Source of the DNA: Geminocystis sp. NIES-3708
GTDB lineage: Bacteria; Cyanobacteriota; Cyanobacteriia; Cyanobacteriales; Cyanobacteriaceae
NCBI RefSeq assembly: GCF_001548095.1
Contig: NZ_AP014815.1
Span: 3,223,656 to 3,287,655 of the forward strand
Reading direction: 5' to 3'
DNA length: 64,000 nt
Below the pieces are notes generated by a model, which worked only from the letters and a program-made list of their open reading frames with translations, did no database searches and had not been told where the DNA came from. Both the position numbers and the translations under genes were made by a program. Each line of letters opens with the position of its first letter. Within the stretch, counting starts at the first letter, position 1. This document shows, piece after piece, positions 16,769 to 27,380 of this stretch.

Positions 16769-18196
16769 ATGTTTGAAAAATTGACACCGCCAGAAGTTGG
16801 TAGTAAAGTAAAATTTGATAATGGTTTACCTATTGTACCTGATAATCCGATTATTCCCTTCATTCGTGGTGATGGTACGGGAGTTGATATTTGGCCAGCT
16901 TCTGAAAAAGTCATTGATGCGGCGGTAGAAAAAGCCTATGGTGGTAAACGCAAAATTAGCTGGTTTAAAATCTATGCTGGAGATGAGGCTTGTGAGAAAT
17001 ATGGCACTTATCAATATCTACCCGAAGATACTTTAACCGCTATCAGAGAATATGGCATCGCTATTAAAGGTCCTTTGACTACTCCTGTAGGTGGTGGTAT
17101 TCGTTCCTTAAACGTTGCCTTAAGACAAATTTTTGATCTCTATAGCTGTGTTCGTCCTTGTCGTTACTATGAAGGTACACCTTCTCCCCATAAAACCCCC
17201 GAAAAATTGGATATTATTGTTTATCGTGAAAATACTGAAGATATTTATTTAGGCATTGAATGGAAAGAAGGCTCAGAAATTGGGCAGAAATTGATTAAAA
17301 TTCTCAATGAAGATTTAATTCCTGCTACACCTGAACACAAAAATAAACAGATTCCCCTTGATTCAGGTATCGGCATTAAACCAATTAGTAAAAAAGGCTC
17401 ACAACGTTTAGTAAGACGGGCGATTCAAAATGCTTTACGTTTGCCTAAAAATAAGCAGATGGTGACTTTAGTTCACAAAGGTAATATCATGAAATATACT
17501 GAAGGAGCTTTTCGTGATTGGGGTTATGAATTGGCAACTACTGAATTTCGTCAAGAGTGTGTTACCGAGAGGGAATCGTGGATTTTAGGTAATAGAGAAG
17601 CAAATCCAGATATTTCCATCGAAGATAATGCTCGTCAAATTGAGCCTGGTTACAATGGTTTAACCCCTGAAAAACAGGCCGTAATTTGTGAAGAAGTTAA
17701 AACTGTGTTAGATGCCATTTGGAATAGTCACGGTAATGGACAATGGCAAGATAAAATTATGGTAAATGATCGCATTGCTGATAGTATCTTTCAACAAATC
17801 CAAACTCGCCCTGATGAATACTCTATTTTAGCAACCATGAACCTCAACGGTGATTATTTATCCGATGCTGCAGCTGCCATTGTTGGAGGTTTAGGTATGG
17901 GGCCAGGTGCTAATATTGGTGATAACTGTGCTATTTTTGAAGCTACTCATGGAACAGCCCCGAAACACGCAGGACTCGATCGTATCAATCCCGGTTCTGT
18001 TATATTATCAGGAGTAATGATGTTAGAGTTTATGGGTTGGCAAGAAGCCGCCGATTTAATTCGTCAAGGAATCAGTAAGGCGATCGCATCTCGACAAGTT
18101 ACCTACGATTTAGCAAGGATGATGACACCTCCAGTGGAGACACCGTTGAAATGTTCAGAATTTGCTCAAGCAATTATCGACAATTTTGATAATTAA
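16769..18196 (+). CDS. icd: NADP-dependent isocitrate dehydrogenase
   Basis: The enzyme converts isocitrate to 2-oxoglutarate, the carbon skeleton for ammonium assimilation and the signal sensed by NtcA and PII. The reading frame stays open to 16721, but relatives start M(Y/F)EKLTPP, so ATG 16769 is chosen (475 aa). Visible motifs are [16 protein letters not shown], the substrate loop [13 protein letters not shown], the YRENTEDIY segment, and [27 protein letters not shown] followed by [13 protein letters not shown] (cofactor region). Full length, no damage. Its 3' end overlaps the convergent 18193-18888 gene by 4 bp. No NtcA site was seen upstream. Confidence 0.96.
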
Positions 18197-18888
18197 TAAT
18201 TAATCTGTGTAAATTTCAGTTGATTATTATAAGGATTGTAAAGGGTATAGGAAGCAGTATTAGCTGTTTTTCCTATATTCCCTACTCCAATTAACCGTTT
18301 TTTTGTGAATTCTTGAACTTCAGATATAGATTTATTATCTAAACTCATAACGGCGGATGTAATAAAACCTGATTGTAACTCATAATCAAATATTTGACTG
18401 GATCTACCGCAGAATAGATAATTAACATTGACACGATTTAATCGATCAAGAATAATCCAAGGAGAAGTATCAGGGGTTAAAACTTCACTTATATTAACAC
18501 TGCTACCATGAATTAAAAGACAGTCAAACTCTACAAAACCAAAGTCTAAATTTCGTAACCATTCCACCGTTTCACGAGAAACACAATCCCAAAGTTTTTT
18601 TGAGGCTTCAACACCATATTTGTTGATCAATTCCACTGGATCTGCGGTAGAGTGTAAACTATGGAGGATAATACATTGTTCTTCCCACCAACCCCGACAA
18701 ACTCGAATAGGGATATTATGATGAGGGTGACGAATTTCTTTAACTAAAGCCTCATTATTCTCACTGATACCAATAATATCACCCAGAATATAGATTTCTT
18801 CTACTGACATTTTTTGTCCTAAAATATCATTTATCACTCCGTGATAAGCCTGTAAATTTCCTTCAATTCCGCTTAAAATTGCCCACAT
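18193..18888 (-). CDS. Metallophosphoesterase-fold protein with degraded active site (zinc island)
   Basis: 231 aa, built like the YfcE/MJ0936-type phosphoesterases but lacking most ligands. The first motif (canonical SDIHGN) is SGIEGN at 6-11. GD is kept at 36-37. The canonical GNHD is replaced by GWWEE (66-70), and GHTH by GRSS (161-164). A His is kept in IHGSS. Normal two-metal catalysis is therefore unlikely. It is related to the 271-aa neighbour at 19191-20006, which also has a G-x-W-(D/E)-E variant. It could be a binding or regulatory protein. It lies 302 bp downstream of that paralogue and may have its own promoter. Confidence 0.7.
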
Positions 18889-19190
18889 TTTGTTAATTAA
18901 TAGTTAATAGTATAGTAACCGACAGGTTAGAACATTTCAATCCTTTAGGCAAGGGCTTTTAATTCCTTATTATCCTGTATTACTTTGTTAATACCCCAAG
19001 CATCATGGCGACTGCTATAAAACAAAAAATAAATTTGTTGCTAATCGAAAATCAATACCTAATACTGAGATGTTGTATCACATCAAAAATACTTAATAAG
19101 CAAAAGTCAAAAAATCAATTTTAATATACTTTAAGTTAATTTCAATCTCTTTGCCCTTTCTATCGTTACCTCCCATGAGGCAAACTCCGA
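18889..19190. other. 302-bp gap between the two metallophosphoesterase-like genes
   Basis: AT-rich, with no ORF, no clear terminator and no Zur-type palindrome that I can see. Confidence 0.5.
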
Positions 19191-20006
19191 TTATCGTTGA
19201 CAAACATGAGTTGCGTCTTCGGCTTTTTCTGCAAACTCTAAACCTCTAGCCAAGCACCATGCAAAAATCGGCGGTAAACCTTTTTCGATAATATCCCGAC
19301 AAGTTGTTTGATAATCATACTCTACCTCTTTTAAAATTATTTCCTGTGTCTTTGTGTTGTATATCACATAAGTACCATTTGGTTTTCCATGACGAGGTTC
19401 ACCCACCGAACCCACATTTATAATACGTTTTAAAGGAGTTTTAAATTGTCTCTGTGATTCAGATTCAATGTTAGATTCATTCACCTTAACTTGTAACATT
19501 CCAACCTTTAAGGTTCGATGATAAGGAATATGAGTATGTCCACAAAATAAAACGTCAGCTTCACTACTTAAAACATGCTCTAAGGCGGTAAAAGCATCCA
19601 TTTCAGGCAAAATGTATTCGTGATTGCTATGAGGGCTACCGTGGGCAAAACAAAGGTTTTCAAGCTTGAGAGTACGAGGTAATTCAGCTAAAAATTGACG
19701 ATTTTCGGCAGTAATTTGTTGATTTGTCCATTCATGGGCGATTATACCTCTTTTTTTTGCTAATAACGAAGGATAGCTACATTCACAGGAATTTAACCCT
19801 TCTACTATATCCTCATCCCAACAACCTTGCACTGAAGGAATATTTAACTCTCGGATTTTATCCACAATTTCGTTAGGGTGAGGACCATAACCCACTAAAT
19901 ATCCTAAACTATAAATAGTCTCGCAGTGATTTTCGTCAATATCCTTTAACACAGCTTCAAAAGCAGGTAAATTAGCGTGAATACAAGACATAACGGCAAT
20001 TTTCAT
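19191..20006 (-). CDS. Metallophosphoesterase-like protein with Cys/Tyr/Trp at metal-ligand positions
   Basis: 271 aa with a full-length calcineurin-like fold. The canonical SDIHAN is SCIHAN (C8, H10), GD is GY (G35-Y36), and GNHD is GCWD (61-64). The later motifs AHGSPH (H122) and GHTH (156-159) are intact, as is the C-terminal NVGSVGEPRHG signature. So the first metal half-site is lost while the second remains; the new Cys8 and Cys62 sit where metal ligands should be. It starts 6 bp after the stop of the CobW-like gene, so it belongs to the folE-cobW transcription unit. Function unknown; a zinc-related role is inferred from context. Confidence 0.75.
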   Translation of the reverse strand: MKIAVMSCIHANLPAFEAVLKDIDENHCETIYSLGYLVGYGPHPNEIVDKIRELNIPSVQGCWDEDIVEGLNSCECSYPSLLAKKRGIIAHEWTNQQITAENRQFLAELPRTLKLENLCFAHGSPHSNHEYILPEMDAFTALEHVLSSEADVLFCGHTHIPYHRTLKVGMLQVKVNESNIESESQRQFKTPLKRIINVGSVGEPRHGKPNGTYVIYNTKTQEIILKEVEYDYQTTCRDIIEKGLPPIFAWCLARGLEFAEKAEDATHVCQR

Positions 20007-20012
20007 TTAATT

Positions 20013-26315: not shown

Positions 26316-26333
26316 TAACCCCTAAAGGGGTTA
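26316..26333 (-). terminator. Hairpin downstream of hemB, possible terminator
   Basis: Perfect 7-bp stem TAACCCC / GGGGTTA with a 4-base loop, about 27 bases after the hemB stop. No T run follows on either strand, so termination is only a guess. Confidence 0.4.
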
Positions 26334-26359
26334 CTACGAACCAGATAATATATTTATTA

Positions 26360-27350
26360 TTAATGTTGGTTTAATTGTTGGGCTACTTGTTTGGCAAAAT
26401 AGGTTAATATCAAATCTGCACCTGCTCTTTTCATACTGGTAAGGGTTTCTAACACGACTTTATCTTCGTCTATCCACCCTCGCTGACTGGCGGCTTTTAT
26501 CATGGCATATTCGCCACTAACATTATAGGCAACTACGGGTAAATTAGTATAATCTCGTAGCCGTCTAATAATATCTAAATAGGCTAGGGCAGGTTTTATC
26601 ATTACCATATCTGCACCCTCTTTGATGTCTAAAGCTACTTCTTTGATGGCTTCTTTCCCGTTAGCATAATCCATTTGATAGGTTTTTTTATCACCAAATT
26701 GGGGGGCAGATTCTAACGCATCCCGAAATGGTCCATAATAAGCTGAGGCGTATTTTGCTGAGTAGGCGAGGATTCCTGTATTTATCCATCCTTCTTTATC
26801 TAATGCCTGTCTAGTTGCTCCAATTCTACCATCCATCATCCATCATATCTGAGGGGGCAACCATATCCGCCCCTGCTTCGGCGTGAGATAATGCCATTTT
26901 TACTAATATTTCCACAGTTTCGTCATTCAATATCTCTCCATCTTTAACGATACCATCATGACCATAAATAGAGTAAGGATCAAGGGCAATATCGGTAATG
27001 ACTGTTATCTGAGGGATTTCTGTTTTAATGGTTCTTACGGTGCGTTGTACTAATCCTTCTGGATTATAGCTCTCTCTTCCTTCGTTATCCTTTTTATTTT
27101 CTTCTATTAAGGGAAAAAGTGCGATCGCATTTATGCCTAAATCAAAAACTTCTTGTAATTCTAAAAGTAATAAATCGAGGGAAAAACGATAACAGTCAGG
27201 CATGGAGGGGATTTCTTGCTTGATGTTTTCCCCTTGCATCACAAATACGGGATAAATTAAATCATTGACGGTTACTTGGTTCTCTTGTACCATTGATCGT
27301 AATGATTCTGTGCGTCTTAAACGTCTTGGGCGATACGACAATAAGGACAT
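26360..27350 (-). pseudogene. hemB: Delta-aminolevulinate dehydratase, variant-metal-site type, frameshifted
   Basis: Porphobilinogen synthase, split in two. The 5' part (26826-27350, 174 aa) ends ...[15 protein letters not shown]; the 3' part (26360-26839) resumes [11 protein letters not shown] in another frame. An extra GATG in the repeat ATGATGGATGATGGATGG explains the shift; removing 4 bp gives the family sequence [11 protein letters not shown]. The Schiff-base Lys of [10 protein letters not shown] is in the 3' part. At 120-132 the protein has DIALDPYSIYGHDG, the form without the zinc-binding cysteine triad (DxCxCxxxxHGHCG). It has a Zur-type box upstream, which suggests a zinc-sparing paralogue, now broken unless the read is in error. 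Confidence 0.88.
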
Positions 27351-27365
27351 AAAATCTTCGTAAAA

Positions 27366-27380
27366 TGATAATCATTATCG
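27366..27380 (-). promoter_or_regulatory. Zur-type operator of hemB
   Basis: TGATAATCATTATCG, 14 of 15 positions of the same palindrome as before folE, ending 16 bases upstream of the hemB ATG (27348-27350). Occupied repressor would block transcription at this spot. Confidence 0.8.

Follow-up and report, generated by a model that had tools for sequence, protein, structure and literature searches.

Background

Which proteins does a cyanobacterium bring into play when zinc is scarce, and what could proteins resembling a metallochaperone and two phosphoesterases, each short of some of its family's usual motifs, be doing among them? The question is raised by a gene island in a 64,000-nucleotide stretch of the Geminocystis sp. 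NIES-3708 genome (contig NZ_AP014815.1; the whole stretch is called the window here, and positions are counted within it). In this island, two boxes of the type associated with the zinc regulator Zur precede paralogues of folE and hemB (folE-II and hemB-II), and a COG0523 CobW-family GTPase, a CobW-like P-loop protein (CWL) and two metallophosphoesterase (MPE)-like proteins (MPE-A and MPE-B) are encoded alongside (Table 1). COG0523 proteins are the best-known candidates for allocating the last zinc atoms in cells. A preliminary description of the sequence had read the island as a Zur-controlled zinc-sparing cluster, in which CWL and the two MPE-like proteins were members with no described role.

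Here, we compare the island with related loci and with published Zur regulons. CWL, MPE-A and MPE-B are shown by this comparison to form a conserved, genetically linked cyanobacterial module. Our explanation, a Zur-controlled zinc-limitation island carrying an undescribed, probably metal-handling, three-protein module, is one that we favour as a whole with some reserve, while its regulon and module part appears very likely from the sequence comparisons. Regulation by Zur is well supported by comparison, and the biochemistry is what we infer. The Zur island itself is of a known kind, as the Anabaena and Synechococcus PCC 7002 regulons illustrate (PMC6103462, PMC4628125), and a search of the open-access literature found no account of the CWL-MPE module or of a re-liganded MPE as such.

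Three adjacent genes form a conserved module

Two sets of loci carry the comparison. The relatives' set consists of 45 loci retrieved through complete or partial CWL matches, 42 of which contain MPE-A, and the named set holds the best 80 of 464 confirmed loci, found by two peptide patterns; because one of these patterns was GCWDED, the named loci lean towards Cys62 of MPE-A (see below). The sets overlap by two loci, and matches shorter than 50% of the reference length are left out of the adjacency and box counts. CWL lies within 1 kb upstream of MPE-A in 41 of the 42 relatives' loci, and MPE-B follows MPE-A within 1 kb in 33; the corresponding counts are 77 and 76 of the 80 named loci, and 18 and 17 of 19 further loci. 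All three genes are adjacent in 32/42, 73/80 and 16/19 loci, respectively, and the reading frames of CWL and MPE-A frequently overlap by four bases. Across 124 loci, the pairwise distances of CWL, MPE-A and MPE-B are correlated with one another (0.91-0.94), values that common descent alone also raises.

Among 100 genomes searched (the genome of the window included), which are not independent of one another, CWL was matched in 48 and the MPE-B query in 52, some of the latter matches being fragments or MPE-A; both were matched in 47 genomes and neither in another 47. The trio as an oddity of the window was rejected on these counts. All three genes are present in strains PCC 73109, PCC 7117 and NIES-970, and MPE-A was found in 45 of 121 small-genome relatives, presumably picocyanobacteria. 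We did not count the MPE-B matches across the phylum (257/386), many of which are weak (E ~1e-4 to 1e-15), mostly of one distant family, and probably other MPEs. Spread by viruses or phages was likewise rejected, as 33 pattern matches in viral contigs yielded zero confirmed relatives; one distant phage match stands at 27% identity.

The neighbours of the module come in changing sets: non-zinc hemB, folE, thrS, hisI, DUF1636, CobW and znuABC. On plasmid A of Trichormus variabilis, for example, the genes run in order from a zinc ABC transporter through hemB, thrS, DUF1636, a CobW-family GTP-binding protein, a methyltransferase, hisI and a hypothetical protein to CWL, MPE-A and MPE-B. In two genomes of the same genus as the window (L067 7768-10418 and L112 8227-10877), CWL and MPE-A are separated by znuB-znuC and znuA together with a Zur-type box in divergent position; the window has no such genes at this place.

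A metallophosphoesterase site rebuilt with cysteine

MPE-A matches the solved structure 3RQZ (E 8.5e-37). In MPEs, the aspartate of motif I and the asparagine of motif III each serve one metal. We tabulated these and the other motif residues in 145 distinct MPE-A sequences, after dropping duplicates and matches shorter than 85% of the reference length. Motif I reads C-x-H (Cys8) instead of D-x-H, and motif III reads Cys62-Trp63-Asp64 instead of GN[HY][DE], in all 145. His122 of motif IV and His157 and His159 of the motif V GHTH are likewise present in every sequence, as are His10, Cys74, Cys76, Cys155 and Cys269, and the GD of motif II (Asp36, the bridging aspartate) is kept in 144, the window copy with Tyr36 being the sole exception. 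Cys8 and Cys62 also occur together in 49/49 MPE-A sequences from the window and the loci fetched by CWL or MPE-B matches.

The family to which MPE-A belongs, comprising 3RQZ and plasmid-borne MPEs of Bacteroidota and others, has most of these ligands in common with it; MPE-A differs in having cysteine for the motif I aspartate and the motif III asparagine. Six outgroup MPEs (from Bacteroidota, Pseudomonadota, Actinomycetota and Archaea), picked for taxonomic spread from the 30 records listed of 147, all have aspartate and asparagine at the two positions, so that Cys8 and Cys62 look derived. A C-x-C after motif III is found in MPE-A and in four of the six (three Bacteroidota and Rubrobacter). 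Two of the outgroup genes (Adhaeribacter and Pontibacter; L270, L271) share this C-x-C and directly adjoin an arsB arsenite efflux gene.

With aspartate and asparagine replaced by cysteine, and the catalytic histidine by tryptophan, the MPE-A site probably takes up a thiophilic metal, and hydrolysis of phosphoesters by the usual route is probably lost; metal binding taken by itself seems rather likely. The two MPE-like proteins had been described beforehand as defective, which fits the ligand-poor MPE-B but not MPE-A, whose site is remodelled with cysteine ligands.

MPE-B and CWL

MPE-B is, by its sequence, a pseudo-phosphoesterase and a paralogue of MPE-A (hhalign probability 99.9 between the two). 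The motif I aspartate is replaced by glycine in 136 of 138 sequences (two have gaps), the first histidine of motif V by arginine in 136 (two keep histidine), and the motif III position is tryptophan in 129. The motif II aspartate is kept in 137/138 and the motif IV histidine in 138/138; most of the MPE metal ligands are lost. MPE-B is a probable partner of MPE-A.

CWL carries the Walker A P-loop in 135/135 sequences when serine is allowed at the first glycine, and in 129 by the strict pattern. The C-terminal domain of CobW (CobW_C) is detected in 22/22 aligned members at E up to 0.1 (best 7.1e-6), and hhalign of CWL against this domain gave a probability of 83.5 (E 8.3e-6, 87 columns). The CxCC metal motif occurs in 0/135 sequences, and the NKxD guanine pattern in 2/135, at residues 127 and 213 of those sequences. 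CWL thus has the P-loop and the CobW_C domain of the COG0523/G3E metallochaperones, among which we count CobW, ZagA and ZigA, and differs from them in these two motifs; it is, on sequence grounds, a P-loop NTPase-like protein with a CobW C-terminal domain and without metal and guanine motifs. A search of the CWL profile against solved structures gave no match at E up to 0.01, and the AlphaFold model is moderate (mean pLDDT 71).

A gene for a FAD/NAD(P)-binding oxidoreductase, conserved and weakly similar to Lys/Orn monooxygenases, is found in 21/42 relatives' and 26/80 named loci, often transcribed away from CWL with a Zur-type box between the two (e.g., L084 7711-8934 and L061 5243-6508).

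Zur-type boxes in the window and in relatives

The preliminary description had reported two near-identical palindromes before folE and a hemB with a variant metal site, and both are present. The first (TGATAATCATTATCA) is perfect and the second (TGATAATCATTATCG) has one mismatch; their 15-bp cores lie 30-44 nt 5' of the likely folE ATG (22610) and 16-30 nt 5' of the hemB ATG (27350). The exact 15-bp pattern TGATAATNATTATCA has a single match in the 4.04-Mb genome, 5' of folE. Against a 23-bp cyanobacterial Zur consensus with 17 fixed positions, taken from a marine Synechococcus paper where it was used for scanning (PMC9337993), the folE box fits without a mismatch and the hemB box at 15/17 positions, and the reversed pattern, run as a control, has no window site with fewer than three mismatches. 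Directly upstream of CWL in the window, no box of its own was found, and this gene would be read, if at all, from the folE box. Looser boxes carry no weight and were rejected as evidence, since at up to two mismatches the 15-bp pattern and its reverse are about as frequent in the whole genome (302 versus 310 matches).

In relatives, a box with up to three mismatches stands directly upstream of CWL in 26/46 relatives, 51/77 named loci, 4/5 plasmids, 6/11 small-genome loci and 4/7 others (loci with fewer than 150 bases upstream of CWL excluded); in the remaining 5/11 small-genome loci it is weaker or absent. The reversed pattern had no match in any of the five sets, and a control stretch inside CWL gave 0, 1, 0, 1 and 0 in the same order. 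Boxes also cluster locally. Of 100 near-perfect boxes in 12 genomes picked for carrying the module, at least 17 are no more than 20 kb away from CWL, versus 0.86 expected (P ~1e-16); for three of these genomes the count covers the fetched stretch. Because the pattern at up to one mismatch is not enriched over its reverse in some AT-rich genomes (22 versus 31 in G004 and 9 versus 19 in G070), we rely on exact matches, position and clustering.

Comparison with published Zur regulons

The closest published counterpart is the hemB-II/folE-II cluster of plasmid pAQ7 in Synechococcus PCC 7002, which has the same genes and the same type of box. There, hemB-II, folE-II, G0131 and G0132 are reported to rise in a zur mutant and with TPEN, and no rise in the zur mutant is reported for G0129 (annotated as a phosphoesterase) and G0130 (no homologues) (PMC4628125). 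Assigning the G numbers to plasmid genes by gene order, we find a remnant of the module (L061 6610-8381), in which the position of G0131 encodes CWL residues 1-147, with 99% identity to PCC 73109, and that of G0129 the last 130 residues of MPE-B (93%). An unrelated gene (G0130 by order) fills the gap between these two parts, and a search of 2.5 kb detected no MPE-A sequence. CWL is separated from the divergent FAD oxidoreductase gene by a region with a perfect 15-bp box. The PCC 7002 cluster differs from the window in this truncation of CWL and MPE-B, in the unrelated gene and in that no MPE-A was found, and the interruption of the module by a deletion and an unrelated gene is a possible explanation for the lack of response of G0129 and G0130. 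These published data support a response of the CWL promoter to Zur and zinc. The statement that the module proteins had no described role was nearly right, except that G0131, the CWL remnant, has been reported as Zur-regulated and left as a conserved hypothetical protein (PMC4628125).

The Zur regulon of Anabaena sp. PCC 7120, compared here by its published table alone, has hemB2, thrS2, folE2 and all4722 in common with the zinc context of the module, all4722 sharing a column with the yciC and cobW genes of other entries; that table lists no CWL/MPE module (PMC6103462).

The island in Geminocystis sp. NIES-3708

On the minus strand the order is folE, CobW, CWL, MPE-A and MPE-B. The CobW, CWL and MPE genes had been placed between the boxes; they occupy 18193-21825, downstream of folE, and the region between the boxes contains transposase remnants and small open reading frames (ORFs). 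The earlier identifications of folE, the His-rich COG0523 GTPase, the CobW-like protein with its P-loop and the MPE-like pair are borne out, that of MPE-B by profile comparison.

Table 1 Features of the island and its surroundings in the window
Feature	Position	Strand	Remarks
Zur-type box 5' of folE-II (core 22640-22654)	22633..22655		0 mismatches to consensus; sole exact 15-bp match in genome
folE-II, GTP cyclohydrolase I paralogue	21951..22610	-	PF01227 E=8.8e-75; CEHH zinc ligands kept; start 22610 chosen by us, ORF opens at TTG 22667
COG0523 CobW-family GTPase	20830..21825	-	PF02492 and PF07683; CICC, NKVD, His-rich loop HHHHHHDHHH
CWL, P-loop and CobW_C, without CxCC and NKxD	20013..20780	-	PF07683 E=2e-5, above cut-off
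MPE-A, metallophosphoesterase family	19191..20006	-	PF12850 E=4.9e-18; Cys8, Cys62, Tyr for Asp36
MPE-B, ligand-poor MPE-A paralogue	18193..18888	-	No Pfam match; placed by profile comparison
Zur-type box 5' of hemB-II (core 27366-27380)	27359..27381		2 mismatches to consensus
hemB-II, non-zinc type, disrupted	26360..27350	-	PF00490 matches in both frames
Transposase ORFs (DDE_Tnp_1), stop-interrupted	23129..24280	+	PF01609 E=4.6e-10 on 23447-24280
Transposase-like ORFs, two overlapping frames	25276..26008	+	Weak PF13936, below its cut-off; presumably IS1-like

A 7-bp tandem duplication near 26829-26846 splits hemB-II into two frames. Its metal site is of the GHDG type (ALDPYSIYGHDG) versus the zinc-type GHCG site (TCLCEYTPHGHCG) of a second hemB, which is intact elsewhere in the genome with its zinc ligands present. 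Among HemB matches in the fetched loci, 58/60 are of the GHDG type; of the other two, one could not be clearly assigned and the other is the second frame of the window gene, where the site is missing. The FolE matches keep CEHH in 62/62, and folE-II is therefore a second copy (the genome has another folE at G000:C1:3523179) that is not visibly zinc-free. The proposal that the island encodes substitutes for zinc enzymes thus holds for hemB-II, which is without zinc ligands, but not for folE-II.

Four FUR-family proteins are encoded in the genome, and one of them (L265), whose best match in the Protein Data Bank is the cyanobacterial SynZur 7NE9 (E 2.4e-23), is by that best match a probable Zur. 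Two ZnuA-family proteins are also encoded; at their loci the best consensus matches have 3 mismatches, with no convincing box.

Synonymous and nonsynonymous changes relative to sister genomes describe the present condition of the module. The ratio of nonsynonymous to synonymous rates (dN/dS) of the window MPE-A against sister genomes is 0.28-0.34, versus 0.10 between two sister genomes; for MPE-B it is 0.19-0.25, with no clear rise over the 0.22 between the sisters, and folE, CobW, CWL, MPE-A and MPE-B all remain open at values below 0.35. The island in the window looks damaged, and the hemB frameshift, Tyr36, the transposase remnants and the dN/dS of MPE-A suggest relaxed constraint.

Some further neighbours were seen in relatives. 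In one small-genome relative (L240 977-6136), the module follows a gene cluster that by eye resembles urease, and a WD40-repeat protein identified by Pfam recurs near the island (12/80 named loci), adjoining a second CobW-family protein at L064 11916-12992.

Proposed explanation and alternatives

Membership of the Zur regulon is argued from the quality of the boxes, their local clustering, the gene content of relatives, the probable Zur and the responses of PCC 7002 genes to zur mutation and TPEN. The idea of a Zur-controlled zinc-limitation cluster stands on these grounds, with the reservation that hemB is frameshifted in this genome. Mechanistically, scarce zinc would cause Zur to leave the folE-II box, upon which an operon of folE-II, CobW, CWL, MPE-A and MPE-B would be transcribed, while the second box would drive hemB-II, a zinc-free paralogue; these steps are drawn from boxes, relatives and published counterparts. 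The mechanism that we find most likely is a complex of the products of CWL, MPE-A and MPE-B, acting beside the classical CobW chaperone, in which nucleotide binding by CWL would serve to charge the MPE-A site with scarce zinc, or with a metal standing in for it, or to release the metal from this site. We advance such transfer through a CWL-MPE complex as possible though rather doubtful. The more specific picture of an NTP-driven zinc-allocation complex, in which the cysteine-rebuilt site holds the metal, the pseudo-phosphoesterase holds MPE-A and the CobW-like protein supplies the power, is offered as a tentative model that may well be wrong.

Several observations weigh against the explanation. 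AlphaFold models MPE-A poorly (mean pLDDT 58), which leaves its site geometry as predicted only. In the window, a third site (44659-44681) also matches 15/17 fixed positions, equal in score to the hemB box, and lies 43-65 nt 5' of an ORF (44724-46307) that by eye looks like a cyanobacterial porin gene. A search of relatives for scattered, boxless genes, as the preliminary description had proposed, found instead the trio mostly adjacent and often directly boxed, though no box with up to three mismatches stands directly before CWL in 20/46 relatives and 26/77 named loci. No box was found within 20 kb of CWL in 4 of the 12 genomes used for clustering (for three genomes, within the fetched stretch only), and at five mismatches the reversed control matches 30/77 named loci, which is why matches at that level were not used. 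The module is patchy, with CWL in 48/100 genomes and MPE-A in 45/121 small-genome relatives. The Zur regulon of the marine strain Synechococcus WH8102 comprises eight genes, three of them for uncharacterised proteins, and the word 'phosphoesterase' is absent from the main text of that paper (PMC9337993). Finally, the module may be failing in this genome, because its MPE-A is without Asp36 and has a higher dN/dS.

This last point shades into a rival account, in which the island here is a decaying relic without current function and MPE-A and MPE-B are becoming pseudogenes. We consider it unlikely, though it deserves to be taken seriously: the hemB-II frameshift, the transposase remnants, the unique Tyr36, the raised dN/dS of MPE-A and the relatives that have lost part of the module (L115, L116, L117, L118 and L120) all speak for it, but the five genes are open with dN/dS below 0.35, MPE-B evolves much as in the sisters and the folE box shows no mismatch. 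Conservation elsewhere would also be left unexplained by decay here.

The main rival on mechanism keeps MPE-A as an active phosphoesterase working with another metal (e.g., iron), the module being a zinc-independent enzyme substitute. Four histidines (His10, His122, His157 and His159) are indeed invariant and Asp36 nearly so, and PhoD, an iron/calcium phosphodiesterase related to purple acid phosphatases, has a cysteine ligand to iron (PMC4223295), a likeness to MPE-A drawn from its published description. Moreover, GNYD replaces GNHD in four of the six outgroup MPEs, so that the catalytic histidine is not always present in this subfamily. Yet in MPE-A the catalytic position is tryptophan and the asparagine is cysteine in 145/145 sequences, and no zinc-type counterpart to be replaced was found, MPE-A alone in the genome exceeding the Metallophos_2 cut-off. 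We judge an active enzyme to be improbable, and keep to metal handling as the probable role of the module.

A role of the module in a nucleotide or cofactor step tied to FolE or tRNA synthetases is suggested by the frequent closeness of folE, hisI and thrS and by the P-loop and phosphoesterase families themselves. It is quite improbable, since the neighbours vary, no folE, hisI or thrS was found in the fetched stretches of 12 small-genome loci, and the trio persists in such loci with the box kept in 6/11.

The boxes of the island resemble the classical Fur box. A response to iron through Fur, to which the four FUR-family proteins, the induction of iron genes too by TPEN in PCC 7002 (PMC4628125), the third window box before a porin-like gene and a gene annotated 'iron uptake porin' that, close to the island of the Trichormus plasmid (L063), comes after a perfect box might point, is very improbable given the zinc-like gene content (znuABC and non-zinc hemB), the rise of the counterpart genes in the PCC 7002 zur mutant (PMC4628125) and the exact fit of the folE box to the published Zur consensus.

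Conclusions

A Zur-controlled zinc-limitation island with a probably metal-handling module is thus the explanation that we retain for this locus. It may account for a puzzle left by PCC 7002, where two genes of a Zur-induced cluster are unresponsive. A conserved partner module, with an MPE site re-liganded by cysteine and an apparent Zur promoter, would add concrete and testable new players to the distribution of zinc in cyanobacteria.

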